From positions 992,001 through 1,056,000 of the forward strand of contig NZ_CP013378.1 in NCBI RefSeq assembly GCF_001718415.1: a stretch of 64,000 nt of DNA, given 5' to 3'. The position numbers were made by a program, and so were the translations under genes. Shown in pieces: positions 53,599-64,000 of this stretch. The stretch is from Burkholderia pseudomultivorans (GTDB taxonomy: Bacteria; Pseudomonadota; Gammaproteobacteria; Burkholderiales; Burkholderiaceae). Numbering within the stretch: position 1 is the first letter of the stretch; each line of letters starts with the position of its first letter. Under the pieces are notes generated by a model that was given only the letters and a program-made list of their open reading frames with translations, did no database searches and was not told where the DNA came from.

Positions 53599-54978
53599 CT
53601 ACGCGTGCGTGCGCCGGCCGGCCTCCGCATCGACGTCGCGCAGCGACTTGCCGCGCGTTTCCTTCGCCAGACCGACGCAGACGATCGAGATCGCCGCCGC
53701 GACGACCAGATACAGCGCGATCGGCGTCGACGAATGATAGCGCTCCAGCAGCGACAGGCCGATCAGCGGCGCGAGCGAGCCGGCCATCAGCGGCGCGACC
53801 TGGTAGCACAGCGACAGCGCGGTGTAGCGCACGTTGGTCGGGAACATCTCGGTCATCAGCGCCGAGTACGGCGAGTACGTCATCGATTCGATGAACAGGC
53901 CCAGCACGATCGCGGCCATGATGATCCAGTCGTTGCCGGTGTCCATCATCGGGAACGCGACGAAGCCCCAGCCGGCGGTCAGCACCGCGCCCGTCAGGTA
54001 CACGGGCTTGCGGCCGACGAGGTCGGACATCAGCCCCATCAGCGGGATGAAGAAGAAATGGATCGCGTTGGCCGCGAACATCAGCTTCAGGATGCGCGTG
54101 GTGTCGGCGCCGACGACCAGTTTCAGGTACGTCAGCGAGAACGTGACGACCATGTAGTAGAGGATGTTTTCCGCGAAACGCGCGCCGATGCCGATCAATA
54201 CCTGCCGCCAGTGGAACTTCAGCACGTGGACCACGCCGAGCTGCTTTTCCTGCTTCTGCTCGCGGCGCGCCTGCGCTTCCTTGAAGATCGGCGCATCGTC
54301 GACCTTGCGGCGAATCCAGAAACCGATCAGCACCACCACCGCCGAGAACCAGAACGCCGCGCGCCAGCCCCATGACAGGAAGTCGGCTTCGGACAGCGAA
54401 CTCGACAGCACCAGCAGGATGATCGTCGCGACCAGGTTGCCGGCCGGCACGCCGGCCTGCGGCCAACTCGCCCAGTAGCCGCGACGGTTGTCCGGGCTGT
54501 GCTCGCTCACCAGCAGGATCGCGCCGCCCCACTCGCCGCCGAACGCGAAGCCCTGGATCAGGCGCAGCGTGACGAGCAGCACCGGCGCCCAGTAGCCGAT
54601 CGAATCGAAGGTCGGCAGGCACCCCATCAGGAACGTCGTGATGCCGACCACGATCAGGCTCACCTGCAACAGATACTTGCGACCGAACTTGTCGCCGTAG
54701 TAACCGAATACCAGCCCGCCGATCGGCCGCGCGGCGAAACCCACCGCGTACAGCGCGAACGCGGCGAGCAGGCCGTCGATCGGGTTGCCCGTCTTCTTGA
54801 AGAAGTGCGTGCCGAATACCAGCGCCGACGCGGTTCCGTACAGGAAGAACTCGTACCACTCCGCCACCGACCCGACCATCGACGCCGCGACGACCCGCTT
54901 CAATTCCCGCTTCGACACCGCATCCTGCACGGCCGCCGCATTGCCTGACGAGACTGCTTCGCCGACCTGACTTGTCAT
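53599..54978 (-). CDS. MFS transporter, MHS family
   Basis: 459 residues from ATG 54978 ([13 protein letters not shown]), GGAG at 10 bp. Family marks [49 protein letters not shown] and [39 protein letters not shown]. 12 TM. Divergent from the DapA-family gene, sharing operator-like sites B and C, so it should import the precursor or substrate of that lyase. Confidence 0.92.
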
Positions 54979-55047
54979 CTCCGTATCTCCTCTCGTTGTC
55001 TTGCATTGCCCTTGACGGACTGCCTCGCGAGTAAGCTCGCCGAAAGA

Positions 55048-55060
55048 TTTTATACAATAT
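55048..55060. promoter_or_regulatory. FCD-GntR operator candidate, site B
   Basis: TTTTATACAATAT; the reverse complement ATATTGTATAAAA is identical to 13 bases of site C. 70 bp upstream of the transporter start. Confidence 0.6.
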
Positions 55061-55355
55061 CCAATACGCAATCCATGGAATCTCAAAAATGCATTCGGCG
55101 GAAATGCGACAGGCCGGGAGGACAACTCGCCACCGGGCGGATGGGCCGCGAAAGGACCGCTTCGTGGGGAGACGAACATGCTGCGTGGGTACGCTGGCGC
55201 CGATCCGGTCGGGCTCGCGGGGCCATTGACCCCGCCGGAACACCCGCGTGCCGGCCGTCTCATGACCACCGCCCTGCCCCGCCACAGGCCGCTGTGACAG
55301 GGCTCCCCGCCCGCTTTCCATCTACCGAACCACCCGCCTCGTCACGCCCTTTTTA

Positions 55356-55372
55356 TTTTATATTGTATAAAA
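55356..55372. promoter_or_regulatory. FCD-GntR operator candidate, site C
   Basis: TTTTATATTGTATAAAA is a perfect palindrome with 7-bp arms and a 3-bp centre, in an AT-rich island, 193 bp before the DapA-family start. Confidence 0.62.
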
Positions 55373-55564
55373 TATGCGAACTGGCTAGAATGACCTCGTC
55401 GATGGCTGACTCTCGGGCGAAACCGGAGGCGCGTTTCGGCACCGAGGCAAACAAGCGGTGGCAGACCGCCGTCCGGATCGCACCGGCGATGACGAAACGG
55501 CGAGTGCGCGTCCAGCCCAAGTTGCCAGCAATGGCGGTTGACCCTATCTGAATGAGGAAACGAG

Positions 55565-56506
55565 ATGAGCGACAACATTTTTACCGGCACCATTCCGGCC
55601 CTGATGACTCCGTGCACCGCTGACCGTCAGCCGGATTTCGACGCGCTGGTGAAGAAGGGCAAGGAGCTGGTGGCACTCGGCATGCGCGCGGTGGTGTACT
55701 GCGGCTCGATGGGCGACTGGCCGCTGCTGACCGAAGCGCAGCGTCAGGAAGGCGTTGCGCGCCTGGTCGAAGCAGGCGTGCCGACCATCGTCGGCACGGG
55801 CGCGGTGAACTCGAAGGAAGCCGTGTCGCACGCCGCGCATGCCGCGAAGGTCGGCGCACACGGCCTGATGGTGATTCCGCGCGTGCTGTCGCGCGGCGCG
55901 TCGCCGGCCGCGCAGAAGGCGCACTTCGCCGCGATCCTGAACGCCGCGCCGAACCTGCCGGCCGTGATCTACAACAGCCCGTACTACGGCTTCGCGACCC
56001 GCGCCGACCTGTTCTTCGAACTGCGTCGTCAGCACCCGAACCTGATCGGCTTCAAGGAATTCGGCGGCGCCGCCGACATGCGCTATGCGGCCGAGAACAT
56101 CACGTCGCAGGACGACAGCGTGACGCTGATGGCCGGCGTCGACACGCAGGTGTTCCACGGCTTCGTGAACTGCGGCGCCGCCGGCGCGATCACCGGGATC
56201 GGCAACGCGCTGCCGCGCGAAGTGCTGCAACTGGTCGATCTGTGCAAGAAGGCCGCGCAGGGTGACGCGGTGGCGCGCGTGCGTGCGAAGGAACTGGAAT
56301 CGGCGCTGGCCGTGCTGTCGTCGTTCGACGAAGGCTGCGACCTCGTCCTGTTCTACAAGCATCTGATGGTGCTGAACGGCGACAAGGAATACACGCTGCA
56401 CTTCAACGAAACCGATGCGCTCAGCGACGCGCAACGCAACTACGCGGAAACGCAGTACACGCTGTTCCGCAACTGGTATGCAAACTGGTCGAAGACTATC
56501 GCCTAA
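55565..56506 (+). CDS. DapA/NanA-family lyase (dihydrodipicolinate-synthase-like)
   Basis: Class I aldolase-type enzyme, TIM barrel. 313 residues. Schiff-base Lys164 in IGFKEFGG, catalytic Tyr136 in VIYNSPYYG, and the phosphate-loop-like GSMGDWPLLTEAQR at about 47-60 (GTTGE in DapA, here Gly-Ser-Met-Gly-Asp). The loss of that GTTGE argues against lysine biosynthesis. In related bacteria such copies act on pyrroline-4-hydroxy-2-carboxylate, keto-sugar acids or 2-oxo acids. Controlled presumably by the FCD GntR. Followed by a strong terminator. Confidence 0.91.
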   Translation: MSDNIFTGTIPALMTPCTADRQPDFDALVKKGKELVALGMRAVVYCGSMGDWPLLTEAQRQEGVARLVEAGVPTIVGTGAVNSKEAVSHAAHAAKVGAHGLMVIPRVLSRGASPAAQKAHFAAILNAAPNLPAVIYNSPYYGFATRADLFFELRRQHPNLIGFKEFGGAADMRYAAENITSQDDSVTLMAGVDTQVFHGFVNCGAAGAITGIGNALPREVLQLVDLCKKAAQGDAVARVRAKELESALAVLSSFDEGCDLVLFYKHLMVLNGDKEYTLHFNETDALSDAQRNYAETQYTLFRNWYANWSKTIA

Positions 56507-56558
56507 GCGCGGCCGCGCGGTGCAGTATGAGGCGCGGCCGTGAAAAGGCCGCGTGAAG

Positions 56559-56590
56559 AAAAAGCCACGGAGCGATTCGTGGCTTTTTTG
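56559..56590. terminator. bidirectional terminator between convergent genes
   Basis: AAAAAGCCACG (56559-56569) pairs with CGTGGCTTTTT (56578-56588) with an 8-nt loop and T-runs on both strands. It is placed between the DapA-family gene and the minus-strand hydrolase. A GC hairpin (CGCGGCC/GGCCGCG) precedes it at 56534-56553. Confidence 0.85.
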
Positions 56591-56656
56591 TTTACGCGTT
56601 CGCGGCAGGCCGGCAACGCCGTGATCCACGCCGCTCGGCTATGCAGCACGCCCTCC

Positions 56657-57781
56657 TCACCCGCCCACCGCCGGCACAATCCCCGGCAACGCGCACAACG
56701 CCCGATCCAGCACCTGCCGCGTGCGCAGCCACGCAATCTCGCGCCAGTCGGAATCGGCCGGCAGGAACGCATCGAACAGCGCGCGCTTGATCCGCCTGCC
56801 GAGTGCATCGTGCGGATCGCCATGCAGATGCAGCCAGTGATCGTCGCGCAGCGCCGTATGCATCGGCATTTCCGGCAATGTCCCGCATTCGATCACGAGT
56901 TGCATCAGGTGCGTGTCGGGCAACGCATCGAGCATCGCCTGCGACGTATAGCCGGTCGCGCGCGCCGCCACGCCGGTATCGCTGACCGCCGCATCCGGCG
57001 CGGTCAGCAGCGTATAGAGCCACGGACCGAACAGCTTTTCGGCATCGCCGAGCGCCGGGTAGCGCGCCTGCGCGATCGCCATCAGCATCGGATGCCCGAA
57101 CGGCCCCGCGCCGGTGTGCAGGTCGAACGCGATCGCAACCTGCGCGGGCCGCACATGCTGCGCGACGATGCCACGCAACGTGCGGTTCGACCAGGTCGCG
57201 CGCTGTCCACCGTAGAAAAGGCCGTCGGCATGCCGGTACTGGCCCGCGCCGAGCAGCGCCTGATAGCCAGGCCAGCCGAGCGAACGCAGATGCGCGTCGA
57301 GCCGCTGGTCCGCCGACCGACGCTCCGGGCCGTCGAAATCGCGGCACGTATAGATGTCGTGGATCGATTCGTAACCCGAATTGACCGGCAGCGCGGCGTC
57401 GAAATCCACATAGTTGCGGTTCAGGTCGACGTTGTCTTCATTGACGCGCCGCACCCATGCGGTGCCCCACGGATTGATCAGATGAATCAGCAGCACGGCC
57501 ACGCCGGGCGGCAGCGCGCGACCGGACAGTTCGTGCAGCCATTCCGTCTGGCACGTGGATCCGTAATAGCCTTCGACACCGTGCGTGCCGGACACGACCG
57601 CCAGCACGCGGCGCGCGTCACGCGGGCCGAGCCACGCGACGTCGGTCGCAAGCGGCTCGCCCGCCGGCCCGGCCAGCGGATGCGGATGGCTCGTCACCGT
57701 CGCGCCGGCCGCTTCGGCCGTCTGCAGGAATTGCGTGCGTTGCCGCGTGAAATCGGCATCGGCCGGAAAACCGTACTTCAT
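56657..57781 (-). CDS. DUF2817/M14-like metallo-hydrolase
   Basis: 374 residues. Zinc-type motifs of the M14 (carboxypeptidase/aspartoacylase) fold: SGTHGVEGYYGS (HxxE) near residue 65, HLINPWGTAWVRRVNEDNVDLNRNY near 99-123, and FDLHTGAGPFGHP near 215-228. The length is normal for DUF2817. 76 bp after, and co-oriented with, the VanB-like reductase, so probably the third gene of the oxygenase operon; hydrolysis of an amide substrate or product is inferred from the fold and context. Confidence 0.82.
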   Translation of the reverse strand: MKYGFPADADFTRQRTQFLQTAEAAGATVTSHPHPLAGPAGEPLATDVAWLGPRDARRVLAVVSGTHGVEGYYGSTCQTEWLHELSGRALPPGVAVLLIHLINPWGTAWVRRVNEDNVDLNRNYVDFDAALPVNSGYESIHDIYTCRDFDGPERRSADQRLDAHLRSLGWPGYQALLGAGQYRHADGLFYGGQRATWSNRTLRGIVAQHVRPAQVAIAFDLHTGAGPFGHPMLMAIAQARYPALGDAEKLFGPWLYTLLTAPDAAVSDTGVAARATGYTSQAMLDALPDTHLMQLVIECGTLPEMPMHTALRDDHWLHLHGDPHDALGRRIKRALFDAFLPADSDWREIAWLRTRQVLDRALCALPGIVPAVGG

Positions 57782-57857: not shown

Positions 57858-59009
57858 TCAGCGGCGCGCGCATGGCAGATCGAGCGTCACCGCGCCGGTC
57901 GGTCGCGCGCAGCACAGCAGCACCGAACCTTCGGGCGGCGGCGACAGCGGCTCTTCGTCATATGCGACGCTGCCGGACAGCAGCGGCGTCATGCACGCAT
58001 TGCACAGGCCGGCGCGGCAGTTGAACGTCGGCGCGTAGCCGGCCTGCTCGGCCATTTCGAGCAGCGTTCCGTGCTCCGGCCGCCAGTGTATCGGCTCGCC
58101 GTGCGGCGCGAAACGCACGGTGATCGCGTCGCCGGCGACATCGGCGGGCTCGGCATTCGCCCGCTCGCCGGCCGCTGCAACCTCGGCCCGCGATGCGTCT
58201 ACCTCGCTGTCGAGCACCGTCGCCGGCCCGAAAAATTCATAACGAATCCGCTCGCGCGCGACGCCCAGCCCGCGCAGCAGGCGCCAGTTCGCCTGCATGA
58301 AACCGGGCGGCCCGCACAGGTACACGTCGTAGTCGTCGAGCGGCAGCAGCGATTGCAGCAGCTCGCGCGTCACGATCCCGCGACTGTCGAAGCCGCCGCG
58401 CGCGAGATCGTCTTCGCGTGGCTGCCGGTAGCAGACGTGGACGTCGATGCCGTCCCGCGTCGCGGCCAGCGCGCGCACTTCGTCCGCGAACGCATGGACT
58501 GCTCCGTGCTCGCATGCGTGAATGAAATGCACGCGCCGCTGCGACGCGCGCGACAGCCGATACAGCATGCTGACGAGCGGCGTCACGCCGACCCCGCCGC
58601 TCATCAGCACGACGGGCCGCTCGCTGCGTTCGTCGCACACAAACGCGCCGGCCGGGCCGGCCAGCTCGAGTTCGTCATCGACGTCGACGTTCGCGTGCAG
58701 ATACGTGGAGCCGCGCCCCGGCGGCACGTCGCCGCCGCCCGCCTCGCGCTTGACCGAGATGCGCCAGCGCGTCGTGTCGGCCGGGTCGCCGGACAGGCTG
58801 TAGTGACGCAGCACACGCTCGCCGTCCGGCAGCGTCAGCCGCAGCACGACGAACTGGCCGGGCGTGAACGCAAGCGACCGCGTGCCGTCCACCGGCACGA
58901 GCTCGAACGATACGATCGCACTGCTCTCGCGTATCCGTCGCGCGACGCGAAAGCGCTCGAACCGGTCCGGCGCGGCCGCCTGCCCGGCAATCAAACCGGC
59001 GTCGACCAT
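57858..59009 (-). CDS. oxygenase reductase, VanB-like (FNR domain plus plant-type [2Fe-2S])
   Basis: NAD(P)H to Rieske electron transfer. 383 residues from ATG 59009, one base after the oxygenase stop; an in-frame ATG at 59033 would overlap that gene. Flavin-binding RHYSLSG, NAD-binding SGGVGVTPLVSMLYRL and YDVYLCGPPGFMQAN, then a C-terminal ferredoxin with CRAGLCNACMTPL and CCARP. That is the VanB order, but it is longer than the usual ~320 residues because of an extended N-terminus and an alanine-rich linker (about 265-295). Confidence 0.92.
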   Translation of the reverse strand: MVDAGLIAGQAAAPDRFERFRVARRIRESSAIVSFELVPVDGTRSLAFTPGQFVVLRLTLPDGERVLRHYSLSGDPADTTRWRISVKREAGGGDVPPGRGSTYLHANVDVDDELELAGPAGAFVCDERSERPVVLMSGGVGVTPLVSMLYRLSRASQRRVHFIHACEHGAVHAFADEVRALAATRDGIDVHVCYRQPREDDLARGGFDSRGIVTRELLQSLLPLDDYDVYLCGPPGFMQANWRLLRGLGVARERIRYEFFGPATVLDSEVDASRAEVAAAGERANAEPADVAGDAITVRFAPHGEPIHWRPEHGTLLEMAEQAGYAPTFNCRAGLCNACMTPLLSGSVAYDEEPLSPPPEGSVLLCCARPTGAVTLDLPCARR

Positions 59010-59010
59010 G

Positions 59011-60060
59011 TCATCGCCCCGCGTCGCATGCAACGGCCGCGGCCGCCTGTTCCGCTTCGATCATCTGGCCGAGCGCACGCCGGAACCGCAGCGGCCCGGA
59101 ATCGATCGCGAGATCGATATTCGGCTTGCGCCGGCGCGCCATGCCTGCGTGCACGGCGGCCAGCACCGCGCGATCCTCCTCGAACGCATGGCGCACGTCC
59201 TCGTCGAACGCGCGCGACACCTGCTCGTCGCCCGGCGCGAAATTGCGCGTCTGGAACCAGAAGTAGCGTGTCTGCGATTCGTCGACCGGCGTCATGAAGT
59301 TGTACGAGTTCATCAGGAACACGTCGGGATGCGCGACGCCATCGTCGCTGCCGGTGCCGGCCGGCGCGAAGATCGCCTTGATCACGGCGACCGACGGAAA
59401 CCGCACCTCGTAGTGCTGCTTGCGATCGCAGCGCCCTGCGAAGCGAACGAATTTCGCATAGAACGGTGCAACGTCGACATCGCGCATCCAGCGCGACACG
59501 GTCACGCCGTTTGCCGCGACGCTCGTCTTCAGCGGTTCGGATTCGCACGCGGCATTGCCGAACGACGACCGATGCACCCACGCGACATGCGACGGATCGA
59601 GCAGGTTGTCGGTCATGTACAGGTAATGGCAATCGACGGTCATCGCGTCGCCGCGATTGAGGCCCCAGGCCGGATCGTCCCATTCGTCGATCGTCAGCAG
59701 CGCGTCGGGATCCGCGGCCGCCTCGTCGCCCATCCACACCCACACGAGCCCATAGCGTTCAGCCACCGGATACCGCCGCACCACCGCCTGCGCCGGAATC
59801 CGCGCCGAACCGGGCGCGCGCACGCACGCGCCCGAGCAGTCGAAGGTCAGCCCGTGGTAACCGCATTCGACGTCATCGCCCGTCAGCCGGCCCATCGACA
59901 GCGGCAGCATCCGGTGCGGACACGCATCCTCGAGCGCCACCGGCGTGCCGTCGGCCTTGCGATACAGCACGATGCGCTCGCCGAGCATCGTCACCGGCGT
60001 CAGCGCGCGCGTGACGTCCTTGTCCCATCCCGCGACATACCAAGCGTTTCTCAAAAACAT
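59011..60060 (-). CDS. Rieske oxygenase, VanA-like
   Basis: 349 residues, the length of vanillate O-demethylase oxygenases. Rieske ligands Cys47, His49 (CPHR) and Cys66, His69 (CGYHG); mononuclear iron site NLLDPSHVAWVH with Asp, His, His spacing. First gene of the 60060-56657 minus-strand set, paired one base apart with its reductase. Divergent from the LysR gene at 60223; TTTAG-N5-CTAAA lies in the 162-bp gap. VanA relatives demethylate or hydroxylate aromatic and other ring compounds; the substrate is unknown. Confidence 0.93.
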   Translation of the reverse strand: MFLRNAWYVAGWDKDVTRALTPVTMLGERIVLYRKADGTPVALEDACPHRMLPLSMGRLTGDDVECGYHGLTFDCSGACVRAPGSARIPAQAVVRRYPVAERYGLVWVWMGDEAAADPDALLTIDEWDDPAWGLNRGDAMTVDCHYLYMTDNLLDPSHVAWVHRSSFGNAACESEPLKTSVAANGVTVSRWMRDVDVAPFYAKFVRFAGRCDRKQHYEVRFPSVAVIKAIFAPAGTGSDDGVAHPDVFLMNSYNFMTPVDESQTRYFWFQTRNFAPGDEQVSRAFDEDVRHAFEEDRAVLAAVHAGMARRRKPNIDLAIDSGPLRFRRALGQMIEAEQAAAAVACDAGR

Positions 60061-60222: not shown

Positions 60223-61176
60223 ATGAGTACGCTTCCTCCGTTGCGCGCGTTGCAGGTCTTCGAGGCCGTCGGCCGCTGCGGCGGCATCGCCGAGGCCGCC
60301 AAACGCCTCGGCATTTCGGCGGGCGCCGTCAGCCAGCAGATGAAACTGCTCGAGGACACGCTCGGCCTCAGCCTGCTCGAGAAGGACGGCAAGCGGCTGC
60401 GGCTCACGACGGCCGGGCGCCGCTATCACGAGCGCTGCGCGGATGCGTTCGAGCGGCTGCGCATCGCGCACGCGGAAGTCGAGCGCGCGCGGCACGACCG
60501 CAACCTGCGGATCAGCGCGCTACCGTCGCTGCTGTCGAAATGGCTCGCGCCGCGCGTGATCGAATGGCAACGCGCGTACCCGGAACTGAGCGTCTATCTC
60601 GACGGCACGCATGCCGAGCCGTCTCCGGACGGCTGCGAGATCGATTTCCGGATCAGCTACGGCGATCGCGTCGCGGACGTCGACAACGCGATCGAACTGT
60701 TTCGCGACGCGGTGGTGCCCGCCTGCAGCCCGCAGCTGCTGCGCGAGTGCGCGCCGCTCGAGACGCCGGCCGACCTGCTGCCGCTCCCGTTGATCGCGAT
60801 CGACTGGCAGCCGAAGTTCGCATCGCCGCCGTCGTGGCAGGACTGGTTCGACGCACACGGCGTGGACGCCTCGGCGGCCTCGCCGGTGCGCCTCGCGTTG
60901 TCGTTGTCGAGCATCGCGATCCAGGCCGCGATCGACGGCCACGGCTTCGTGCTCGCGCAGTCGTCGATGATCTGCGACGACGTCGCGGCCGGACGGCTCG
61001 TCGTGCCGATCGCGTCGGGGCTGCCGCTGCCGTGGCCGTACTTCGTCGCGTGGAAGAAAAGCGCGTTCGACAAGCCGGAATGCCGCAACTTTCATCGCTG
61101 GCTGCTGACGCGCGCACGCGAGCAGCAGGAAGTCAGCGATCGCCTGGTTGCGACCAGCGCGACCGGAACGGTGTAG
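60223..61176 (+). CDS. LysR-family (GcvA-like) regulator of the VanA-like operon
   Basis: 317 residues beginning MSTLPPLRALQVFEAVGR, the GcvA group start. HTH GGIAEAAKRLGISAGAVSQQMKLLEDTLGLSLLEKDGKRLRLTTAG, effector domain from about 92 (LRISALPSLLSKWLAPRVIEW). Divergent from the Rieske gene and related to the LysR at 62303 (shared PPLRALQ and AGAVSQQ). Its stop is 60 bp from that of the binding protein on the other strand. Confidence 0.92.
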   Translation: MSTLPPLRALQVFEAVGRCGGIAEAAKRLGISAGAVSQQMKLLEDTLGLSLLEKDGKRLRLTTAGRRYHERCADAFERLRIAHAEVERARHDRNLRISALPSLLSKWLAPRVIEWQRAYPELSVYLDGTHAEPSPDGCEIDFRISYGDRVADVDNAIELFRDAVVPACSPQLLRECAPLETPADLLPLPLIAIDWQPKFASPPSWQDWFDAHGVDASAASPVRLALSLSSIAIQAAIDGHGFVLAQSSMICDDVAAGRLVVPIASGLPLPWPYFVAWKKSAFDKPECRNFHRWLLTRAREQQEVSDRLVATSATGTV

Positions 61177-61236: not shown

Positions 61237-62010
61237 CTACGGATTCGACTGTTCGATATCGAAATAGCGGCGCTCCAGCCGGCGCAGCGTGCCGTCCTGG
61301 TTCATCGCCGCGATCGCCCCGTCGATCCTGTCGCGCAGCGCGCCGTCGTCCTTGCGCAAGCCGATCGCCACGCCTTTGCCGAGCGTCTTCTCGTCGACGA
61401 CCGGCTCGCCGAGGAACACGTAGCCGGCGCCTTGCGGCGTCTTCAGAAACCCTTCGCTGGCCGCGACCATGTCGGTCAGTGTCACGTCGAGCCGGCCCGC
61501 GCGCAGGTCGTTGTTGACGAGTTCCTGGTTCGCATACGACACGACCTCGATGCCGGCGGGGGCCCAGTAGGTGCGCGCATAGGTCTCCTGCGTCGAGCCC
61601 TGCGCGACGCCGACGCGCTTGCCGCGCAGCGACGCGACGGTCGGCTTGATATCGCGGCCGCGCAGGCCGACCAGGCGGCTCGGCGTATTGAACAGCGACG
61701 TGGAGAACGCAAGCTGCGTCTCGCGTTGCGGCGTGACCGACAGCGCGGACAGGATCGCATCGAACTTGCGGCCCTTGAGCGCCGGGATGATTCCGTCGAA
61801 TGCCGTCTCGACCCACACGCATCGTGCATTCAGGCGACGGCAGATCTCGTTGCCGACGTCGATGTCGAAACCGACGAGCTGCCCCGACGGCGCTTTGGAT
61901 TCGAACGGCGCGTAGGACGGATCGACGCCGAAACGAAGGCGTGTCGCGTCGCCCGCATGGGCGGCAGCAGCGGCCATCAGCATGGCCAGACCGGCAATGG
62001 TTTTTTTCAT
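61237..62010 (-). CDS. periplasmic amino-acid-binding protein (HisJ/ArgT type)
   Basis: 257 residues from ATG 62010 (MKKTIAGLAMLMAAAAAHAG; AGGAG 6 bp away). Signal peptide of about 19 residues, not a lipoprotein. Mature SBP family 3 with LRFGVDPSYAPFESKAPSGQLVGFDIDVGNEICRRL and GIIPALKGRKFDAILSALSVTPQRETQLAFSTSL, typical of lysine/arginine/ornithine/histidine binding proteins. There is no permease or ATPase beside it, so it is either an orphan or serves a transporter elsewhere. Divergent from the second GcvA-like LysR gene (292 bp). Confidence 0.92.
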   Translation of the reverse strand: MKKTIAGLAMLMAAAAAHAGDATRLRFGVDPSYAPFESKAPSGQLVGFDIDVGNEICRRLNARCVWVETAFDGIIPALKGRKFDAILSALSVTPQRETQLAFSTSLFNTPSRLVGLRGRDIKPTVASLRGKRVGVAQGSTQETYARTYWAPAGIEVVSYANQELVNNDLRAGRLDVTLTDMVAASEGFLKTPQGAGYVFLGEPVVDEKTLGKGVAIGLRKDDGALRDRIDGAIAAMNQDGTLRRLERRYFDIEQSNP

Positions 62011-62302: not shown

Positions 62303-63232
62303 ATGAACCGTTTGCCGCCCTTGCGCGCCCTACAGGCGTTCGATGCCGTCGTTCGTAACGGCAACGTGATGACCGCCGCCGAATCGCTGCATGTCACGCC
62401 TGGCGCCGTCAGCCAGCAGATCCGCGTGCTGGAGGAATTCCTCGGCATCGTGCTGTTCGACCGCGAGAGCAGCGGCCTGCGCCCGACGGAACTCGGCCGG
62501 CTCTATCACCGGCACATCGCGCGCGGCTTCGAATGCTTTCATGCCGGGCAGGCGGCGCTGCACGCCACGCGCGAGGCACCGCAGCTCACGCTCAGCACCT
62601 TCCCTTCCGTGGCCACGCACTGGTTCGCCGCCAGGATCGAAAAATGGCGCGCGCGGTCTGCAGCGGTGCGCGTACACGTCGAGGCGACCGATCGCGAGCC
62701 GAAACGCGGCGAGCATCACGCCGATTTCCGCATGACCTACGGCAAGCCGCCCACCGACGGCACGCCCTGCCGCCTGCTGTTCGTCGATCGCGTGATGCCG
62801 GTGTGTGCGCCGTCGCTGCTTCGCGCGGCCCAGCCGCTCGCGCAGCCGGCGGATCTGCTGCACTACCCGCTGGTCCATGTCGAATGGGGCTGGGCCGATT
62901 TGTCGCCGCCCACCTGGGCGAACTGGTTCGCCGCGACGGGCGTGCCCGTTCCCGATACGCTCGCGCCGCTCAGCTATTCGCTGTCCTCGATGGCGATCGA
63001 CGCGGCGGTCGGCGGGCGCGGCGTCACGCTCGGGCAAGGGCTGTTCGCCGCCGACGGCCTCAGATCCGGCCAGCTCGTCGCGCCGTTCAAGGTGTCGCTG
63101 CCGATGCCGCGCCCCTACTATCTGGTCTGGCAGCCAGGCACGCTCGACCTGCCCGGCGCGCAGCCCTTTCTCGACTGGCTCGTCGAGGAAGTCGAACAGA
63201 CCGTTCGCGACATCGACGCGGCATTCGATTGA
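62303..63232 (+). CDS. LysR-family (GcvA-like) regulator upstream of the ammonia-lyase-family gene
   Basis: 309 residues beginning MNRLPPLRALQAFDAVVRNG. HTH NVMTAAESLHVTPGAVSQQIRVLEEFLGIVLFDRESSGLRPTELG; effector domain from about 94 (LTLSTFPSVATHWFAARIEKW). Related to 60223. Divergent from the binding protein and 176 bp upstream of the lyase-family gene, with a candidate operator on each side, so it likely controls both. Confidence 0.92.
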   Translation: MNRLPPLRALQAFDAVVRNGNVMTAAESLHVTPGAVSQQIRVLEEFLGIVLFDRESSGLRPTELGRLYHRHIARGFECFHAGQAALHATREAPQLTLSTFPSVATHWFAARIEKWRARSAAVRVHVEATDREPKRGEHHADFRMTYGKPPTDGTPCRLLFVDRVMPVCAPSLLRAAQPLAQPADLLHYPLVHVEWGWADLSPPTWANWFAATGVPVPDTLAPLSYSLSSMAIDAAVGGRGVTLGQGLFAADGLRSGQLVAPFKVSLPMPRPYYLVWQPGTLDLPGAQPFLDWLVEEVEQTVRDIDAAFD

Positions 63233-63408: not shown

Positions 63409-64000
63409 ATGAACGCCCCGGATCTCCTTCTCCCGACTCGTCCGCAAGACATCGACGAAGTCACGCTCGGCGATGCAGACATGTCGCTCGAGCAATTCAT
63501 CGCCGTCGCGAAATACGGCGCGCGCGTGCGGCTGTCGCCCGCCTATCGCGAACGTGTGGCGAAATCGCGCGCGCTGGTCGAACGGTTTCTCGCCGAAAAC
63601 CGCCTGGTTTACGGCGTGACGACCGGATTCGGCGACAACTCGACACGCGTGATCCGTCCCGACGAAGCAGAACAACTGCAGCGCAACATCGTGCGCTCGC
63701 ACGCGGTCTCGGTCGGCGCGCCGCTGCCGCGCGAAGTCGTACGCGCCACTCAGCTGATGGTGCTGAACAGTCTCGGCAAGGGCTATTCGGGCGTCACACT
63801 CGAACTGCTCGAACTGATCGCCGAACTGCTGAATCGCGACATCGTGCCGATCGCGCCCGGCGACGGTTCGGTCGGTTATCTCGGACCTGAGGCGCACATG
63901 GCGTTGGTGCTGATCGGCGAAGGCGAAGCGCTGTGGCAAGACACGCGGATGCCCGGCAAGGACGCGCTGGCGGCGGCCGGCCTCAAGCCGCATACGCTGC
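63409..64000 (+). CDS. histidine-ammonia-lyase-family protein without the MIO tripeptide, 5' part
   Basis: The first 197 residues of an aromatic amino-acid lyase (HAL/PAL) fold; the gene leaves the window. AAGGAG at 63391-63396. Conserved parts: YGVTTGFGDNSTR (Tyr68 is the expected catalytic Tyr), LQRNIVRSHAVSVGAPL, and GSVG...AHMALVLIGEGEA. In HAL the sequence between is ASGDLAPL, where Ala-Ser-Gly condenses into MIO. Here the bases 63865-63897 read GDGSVGYLGPEAH, with Tyr157-Leu158-Gly159 in place of Ala-Ser-Gly and the loop three residues shorter. It therefore cannot make MIO in the normal way. The gene may encode a different activity. Not called hutH for that reason. Confidence 0.87.
   Translation, partial: MNAPDLLLPTRPQDIDEVTLGDADMSLEQFIAVAKYGARVRLSPAYRERVAKSRALVERFLAENRLVYGVTTGFGDNSTRVIRPDEAEQLQRNIVRSHAVSVGAPLPREVVRATQLMVLNSLGKGYSGVTLELLELIAELLNRDIVPIAPGDGSVGYLGPEAHMALVLIGEGEALWQDTRMPGKDALAAAGLKPHTL

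Follow-up and report, generated by a model that had tools for sequence, protein, structure and literature searches.

A histidase-like protein of Burkholderia pseudomultivorans with a replaced MIO loop, a candidate betaine lyase

Introduction

Histidine ammonia-lyase (HAL; HutH; PDB 7tqr, 1b8f) and related enzymes of the PF00221 family contain 4-methylideneimidazole-5-one (MIO), which is formed from Ala-Ser-Gly. Removal of the MIO serine from the phenylalanine ammonia-lyase (PAL) of R. xylanophilus is reported to have left practically no activity (PMC3903478). A closely related system without this group is ergothionase, which converts ergothioneine to thiourocanate and trimethylamine and "lacks the MIO cofactor" (PMC13405746). 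Here we describe a PF00221 gene at the end of a 64,000-nt stretch of the Burkholderia pseudomultivorans genome (the window, contig NZ_CP013378.1), whose product carries Tyr-Leu-Gly-Pro-Glu (YLGPE) where MIO would be formed. An earlier note on this DNA had pointed to this exchange and held that no enzyme of the kind had been described; the latter is contradicted by ergothionase, a MIO-free lyase on the same fold (PDB 6s7j/6s7q). Our best reading is that, while a MIO-free ergothionase is already known, the distinct window-type clade is an undescribed group of betaine lyases. Among the open-access PubMed Central papers listed by literature searches, no hercynine lyase was found, and the only MIO-free lyases were ergothionase and MIO-less mutants.

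The replaced loop and the retained pocket

The genome carrying the lyase comprises 7.96 Mb in three contigs. The window holds the first 197 codons of the gene, which ends 977 bases beyond it; completed from the adjoining sequence (L003), it encodes 522 amino acids. The motif order is GSVG-YLGPE-AHM compared to GSVG-ASGDLAPL-AHM in MIO enzymes, and the HutH of the same genome (41% identical) has ASGDLAPL at the aligned stretch. The loop thus comprises five residues instead of eight, a gap of three. Because Ala-Ser-Gly is replaced, MIO cannot form, and the protein is, judged from its sequence, free of MIO, with a loop incompatible with autocatalytic formation of the group. The remainder of the active site resembles that of HAL. 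According to the alignment, Tyr68, whose retention had been noted before, as well as His98, Asn207, Gln287, Tyr290, Arg293, Phe341, Met394, and Glu426 are kept. They make up the set that binds histidine in HAL; the positions aligned with Tyr53, His83, Asn195, Gln277, Tyr280, Arg283, Phe329, and Glu414 of P. putida HAL are kept in the window lyase.

The PF00221 score (Table 1) and a structure prediction (predicted local distance difference test score 91.4), whose ten best matches are all HAL or tyrosine aminomutase, place the protein in this family and fold. It also passes the NCBIfam hutH profile (547.2 bits, cut-off 539.15) despite lacking Ala-Ser-Gly, which means that the hutH model does not test for MIO. 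An AAGGAG-like site lies 12 bases 5' of the ATG, which is rather far and does not bear out the good ribosome site claimed earlier.

Table 1 Features of the lyase locus and of related loci (window coordinates unless a locus is named)
Feature	Position	Strand	Remark
Predicted MIO-free PF00221 lyase gene, 5' part	63409..64000	+	open frame leaving the window; PF00221 558 bits
Complete lyase gene	L003:1909-3477		from adjoining sequence
Tyr-Leu-Gly-Pro-Glu replacing Ala-Ser-Gly-Asp-Leu-Ala-Pro-Leu	63877..63891	+	codons 157-161
GcvA-like LysR regulator, just upstream of lyase	62303..63232	+	profile matches
Amino-acid-type solute-binding protein	61237..62010	-	grouped by BLAST with scanned downstream copy
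Second GcvA-like LysR regulator	60223..61176	+	link to lyase uncertain
Rieske oxygenase with VanA_C domain	59011..60060	-	68% identical to Rieske of Pseudomonas lyase cluster L010
Reductase partner of Rieske oxygenase	57858..59033	-	58% identical to L010 reductase
MFS transporter, DUF2817-like and DapA-family-like genes	53599-57781		beside first Rieske pair
Second solute-binding protein	L003:3572-4510		just downstream of lyase
Second Rieske/reductase pair	L003:4488-6526		downstream of lyase
Ergothionase-type lyase of G013	L225 6146-7786	-	N-terminal hydrophobic stretch
Clade B lyase	L156 8898-10637	-	loop Y-[IL]-[ST]-H
Clade B lyase	L228 9066-10514	-	loop Y-[IL]-[ST]-H
Clade B lyase	L010 18626-20143	+	beside Rieske/reductase genes
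GTGDL-type lyase	L015 and L018 8530-9960	+	Actinomycetota
GTGDL-type lyase	L160 9577	-	Actinomycetota

A widespread but patchy clade

We found that Ala-Ser-Gly is lacking in all of the best 120 of 6616 relatives with E <= 1e-20, a set which includes one near-copy of the window lyase. Among named entries of the protein database, those from Paraburkholderia, Burkholderia, and Trinickia come closest, at 75-83% identity. When genome contigs were searched, the Y-L loop was present in the best-matching loci, and Ala-Ser-Gly (ASG) or Cys-Ser-Gly (CSG) in most of the more distant ones. The pattern across the clade is Tyr-Leu-x-(Pro/Val)-Glu. A sequencing error, which the earlier note had named as a possible source of the loop, and decay of the gene are both ruled out since the loop is common to the clade; its view that the gene looks maintained is supported.

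In a tree built without the loop columns, the window-type proteins form one clade (34 of 92 rows) with a Shimodaira-Hasegawa-like approximate likelihood ratio test support of 100. They do so again in a tree of 51 rows (12 rows, support 100/100), which is a further sample of the larger set with the long row L070 left out. The input consisted of hand-chosen loci and of random samples, namely 22 of the listed window-type proteins P0002-P0120 after a length filter, 14 of 120 proteins of a second Tyr-loop group (clade B, see below), and 14 of 119 ergothionase-group proteins plus P0241. An approximately unbiased test did not reject trees that join the window type with ergothionase (p 0.43) or with clade B (p 0.47). 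The tree is compatible with one loss of MIO as well as with several, and a single origin is neither shown nor rejected.

The clade is widespread across phyla but patchy, with hosts among Burkholderiaceae, Pseudomonas, Bacillales, Actinomycetota, and a gut deltaproteobacterium. Within Burkholderiaceae, 4 of 150 genomes carry the gene (matches of at least 75%, own genome counted). Under a strict E-value limit and with the centre genome counted, the order that contains G151 gave matches in 5 of 249 genomes and the Pseudomonas genus group around G152 in 7 of 249. A limit of E <= 1e-110 left 8 of 247 genomes with matches in the phylum group around G150; the matches outside G150 are 41-45% identical, with unchecked loops. 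Two plasmid searches gave matches below 60% identity throughout, most of the listed rows carrying the annotation histidine or aromatic amino acid ammonia-lyase or none; the best, and the only one whose loop was checked, is a window-clade gene on a plasmid of Smac51 (L149). In G154, two window-type copies are broken up over frames. Separately, G032, G034, G063, and G141 each have one PF00221-gene match with one internal stop codon, which suggests ongoing gene loss.

Comparison with ergothionase

The window lyase matches the ergothionase structures of T. denticola (PDB 6s7j/6s7q) at 2.4e-58; when the loop fragment alone was searched against solved structures, ergothionase was not listed. Both proteins belong to the same superfamily of lyases, lack MIO, and probably share the same chemistry, the loss of trimethylamine. 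However, ergothionase is only 31% identical, its loop reads E-[GA]-D with one residue missing, it has Lys in place of Tyr398 and mostly Gly in place of Met394, and its gene neighbours belong to the thiourocanate pathway. An ergothionase is also described from Burkholderia sp. HME13 (AB699692, PMC11089744); the comparison covers 6s7j/6s7q and the ergothionase-group rows. Among the sampled rows, the ergothionase group has Glu at the loop position in 15 of 15 and Lys at position 398 in 14 of 15, whereas the window clade has Tyr at both positions in 23 of 23. The two form separate clades (each 100/100).

Of 150 Burkholderiaceae genomes, 3 have an above-cut-off match to thiourocanate hydratase (NF058530), the enzyme of the next step in ergothioneine breakdown. 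All three encode an ergothionase-type lyase close by (35-36% identical to 6s7j) with the loop EADITILSH and the Lys kept. Only 1 of 19 window-type hosts (G013) has the hydratase above the cut-off, and the result is incomplete for 3 of the 19, which gave only fragment matches. The only match in the window's own genome (692 bits, cut-off 930) is the urocanase of its hut (histidine utilization) locus. G013 serves as a control: one cluster (L225) contains an ergothionase-type lyase, thiourocanate hydratase, ErtD (695.8 bits, cut-off 600), and ErtE (645.1 bits, cut-off 520), while the window-type gene lies on another contig (L122) beside a LysR gene and a solute-binding protein gene. The presence of both lyase types in separate gene sets indicates two different enzymes. 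The N-terminal hydrophobic stretch of the G013 ergothionase-type protein is a putative signal peptide, so this protein may act in the periplasm.

Gene neighbourhoods

We examined the neighbours in 33 loci of the clade, counting loci that had been fetched twice once (L014 for L173, L230 for L155); gene borders in part of these loci were set by a simple script and are approximate. LysR regulators were found in 19 loci, family-3 binding proteins in 18, ABC permeases with an ATPase in 11, and MFS transporters in 7. Genes of the N-demethylation type include a Rieske oxygenase (8 loci), an N-methyl-amino-acid-oxidase-like gene (L011, L153), and an MttB-like methyltransferase (one locus). A BCCT betaine-family transporter gene adjoins the lyase in L148, L154, and L230, and a fourth match (25%) lies 6 kb from the lyase in L007.

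Urocanase genes are part of five clusters, whole in L152, L171, and L230 and truncated at contig ends in L168 and L014. By chance, ~0.4% per locus would be expected (for an 18 kb stretch and 1.3 urocanases in a genome of 6.1 Mb), an estimate to be read in light of loci that differ in length and of which some are not independent. Judged by score, the three whole genes encode urocanases of the ordinary kind: those of L152 and L171 reach 1007 and 1015 bits as hutU compared to 700 and 688 bits as thiourocanate hydratase (cut-off 930), and that of L230 (G351) reaches 708 bits as thiourocanate hydratase. The gene order in L152 is MFS (named by likeness to L011), lyase, AraC regulator, hutG-like gene, hutU, hutI, and in this genome (G198) the window-type lyase is the sole PF00221 gene. 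In L230, the order is lyase, BCCT, hutG-like gene, hutI, hutU, and a HutH with ASG. G776 has a second urocanase copy beside the lyase in addition to the one of its hut operon.

At the window locus itself, the lyase is surrounded by genes for an ABC transporter, whose binding protein is opine-like, and for two Rieske/reductase pairs (Table 1). The VanA_C Rieske protein is related to the demethylases DdmC and NdmA. The solute-binding protein encoded upstream is likely linked to the lyase. The earlier note had assigned the lyase its own LysR gene; a regulator gene is indeed located just upstream, although LysR relatives are near the lyase in only the 19 loci mentioned. S-formylglutathione hydrolase and S-(hydroxymethyl)glutathione dehydrogenase, both above cut-off, are encoded further downstream, and a separate ASG HutH occurs together with the genome's only urocanase. 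Of the genes next to the first Rieske pair, the MFS transporter and the DUF2817-like gene were named by eye, the latter without NCBIfam match at 1e-20, and the DapA-family-like gene scores below the cut-off; all three are possible members of the same catabolic island.

Proposed reaction and alternatives

Taken together, the urocanase, BCCT, and demethylase-type neighbours link the reaction to urocanate as product and to a methylated amine as substrate. From this gene context we infer that the window lyase is, on balance, a MIO-free amine lyase which most likely converts hercynine (histidine betaine) to urocanate and trimethylamine and thereby feeds the hut pathway. The analysis establishes the loop, the clade, the kept pocket residues, and the gene neighbours, from which the substrate, the products, and the parts played by the catalytic residues and the Rieske enzymes are deduced. 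The HAL pocket would bind the imidazole and the carboxylate of a histidine with a methylated alpha-amino group, most likely hercynine. Its trimethylammonium is a good leaving group without a free electron pair for addition to MIO. Because it could not add to MIO and would already leave well, MIO may have become useless and been lost, with the Tyr-Leu-x-(Pro/Val)-Glu loop filling its place. We further infer that Tyr68 and Glu426 handle proton removal, whereupon urocanate and trimethylamine would leave and urocanate would enter the hut pathway. The neighbouring ABC transporter may import the substrate, and the Rieske N-demethylases and glutathione-formaldehyde genes may process methyl groups of the substrate or of the released amine. 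The earlier note had suggested a MIO-independent lyase or a different reaction without naming one; the predicted absence of MIO agrees with it, and the context favours elimination of the amine from a methylated histidine over loss of ammonia.

Several points weigh against this proposal. Urocanase and BCCT genes are confined to the five and three loci named, in few lineages, and the window's own lyase cluster has neither. MttB-like and BCCT-like genes also lie beside Cys-Ser-Gly lyases in Smac51 (L157, L158; BLAST grouping), so such neighbours are no specific sign of MIO loss. Octopine/nopaline binders are the nearest relatives of the solute-binding protein, a kinship that would suit an N-carboxyalkyl amino acid as well. 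Nor is any hercynine-specific protein known that could anchor the substrate, and a PF11927-type amine demethylase was looked for in the own genome and not found. In addition, Asn207, Tyr290, and Phe341 vary inside the clade according to the alignment, so that members may differ in substrate. The deep-branching members L079, L148, L154, and L155 have Leu at 290 and Ala or Cys at 341, a pattern that would be expected if a bulky ammonium must fit; the window lyase's own subgroup keeps Tyr290 and Phe341, which calls for caution.

Among the alternatives, the same kind of enzyme acting on another substrate, such as N-alpha-mono- or dimethyl-histidine, a histidine opine, or a ring-methylated histidine betaine, is unlikely, yet the most probable of them. 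The oxidase-like neighbours in L011 and L153, the octopine/nopaline-like binding protein, and the kinship of the VanA_C Rieske protein to DdmC and NdmA would suit it; less substituted amines, however, would presumably be poorer leaving groups, and a quaternary ammonium is the better match for the BCCT neighbours. A MIO-independent histidine ammonia-lyase or related deaminase acting on ordinary L-histidine seems improbable to us. It would account for the HAL pocket, the hutH score, and G198, where the window type is the only histidase-family gene and sits inside the hut operon. It leaves the betaine-transporter and demethylase neighbours unexplained, and it has to contend with the additional ASG- or CSG-bearing PF00221 gene that 12 of 13 host genomes scanned possess, with the ASG HutH in the same gene set of G351, and with the reported loss of PAL activity without the MIO serine (PMC3903478). 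Betaine-type neighbours also set window-type genes of several lineages apart from HAL.

Ergothionase proper, despite the structural match, is a shade less probable still and is disfavoured: its loop and Lys differ, the window type has its own clade, thiourocanate hydratase is rare among the hosts and absent above cut-off from the own genome, and in G013 and the two other genomes it is the ergothionase-type lyase that accompanies this hydratase. That catalysis has been lost and the protein serves another role is very improbable. Loss of MIO could by itself mean decay, but the other checked active-site positions are kept, most of them across the clade, and the clade spans phyla and has catabolic neighbours.

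If the window lyase does act on hercynine, which is made by fungi and actinobacteria, it would supply a missing step for the use of this compound as carbon and nitrogen source and constitute a new bacterial source of trimethylamine. It would also offer a test of why MIO exists, since one scaffold would hold enzymes differing in leaving amine and in MIO, and might explain the Pseudomonas hutH1 gene. As the hutH model accepts them, many proteins named histidine ammonia-lyase may be MIO-free betaine lyases. More tentatively, and somewhat short of the confidence we place in the reaction itself, we propose a widespread, patchy family of hercynine trimethylamine-lyases that is separate from ergothionase, goes under the annotation histidine ammonia-lyase, and leads from histidine betaine to urocanate and the hut pathway; across the superfamily, MIO would have been given up wherever the leaving amine is already quaternary.

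Further relatives

Clade B also comprises predicted MIO-free proteins with a Tyr loop three residues shorter than that of HAL, as in the window lyase. It differs in forming its own clade (100/100), in its 39% identity to the window lyase (L010 copy), and in the replacement of Phe341 and Tyr290. One clade B gene occupies the place of hutH1 in a Pseudomonas hut operon, matched to that of SBW25 by gene order only; hutH1 encodes a homologue of histidase that is dispensable for growth on histidine. The Cys-Ser-Gly lyases of L157 and L158 come from a gut deltaproteobacterium with seven PF00221 genes and are perhaps MIO enzymes in methylated-amine clusters. A third putative MIO-free type with the loop GTGDL was found in Actinomycetota. 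The second-best solved match of its L015 copy is 6s7j, and in two Sciscionella genomes a gene of this type is located directly upstream of the window-type gene.
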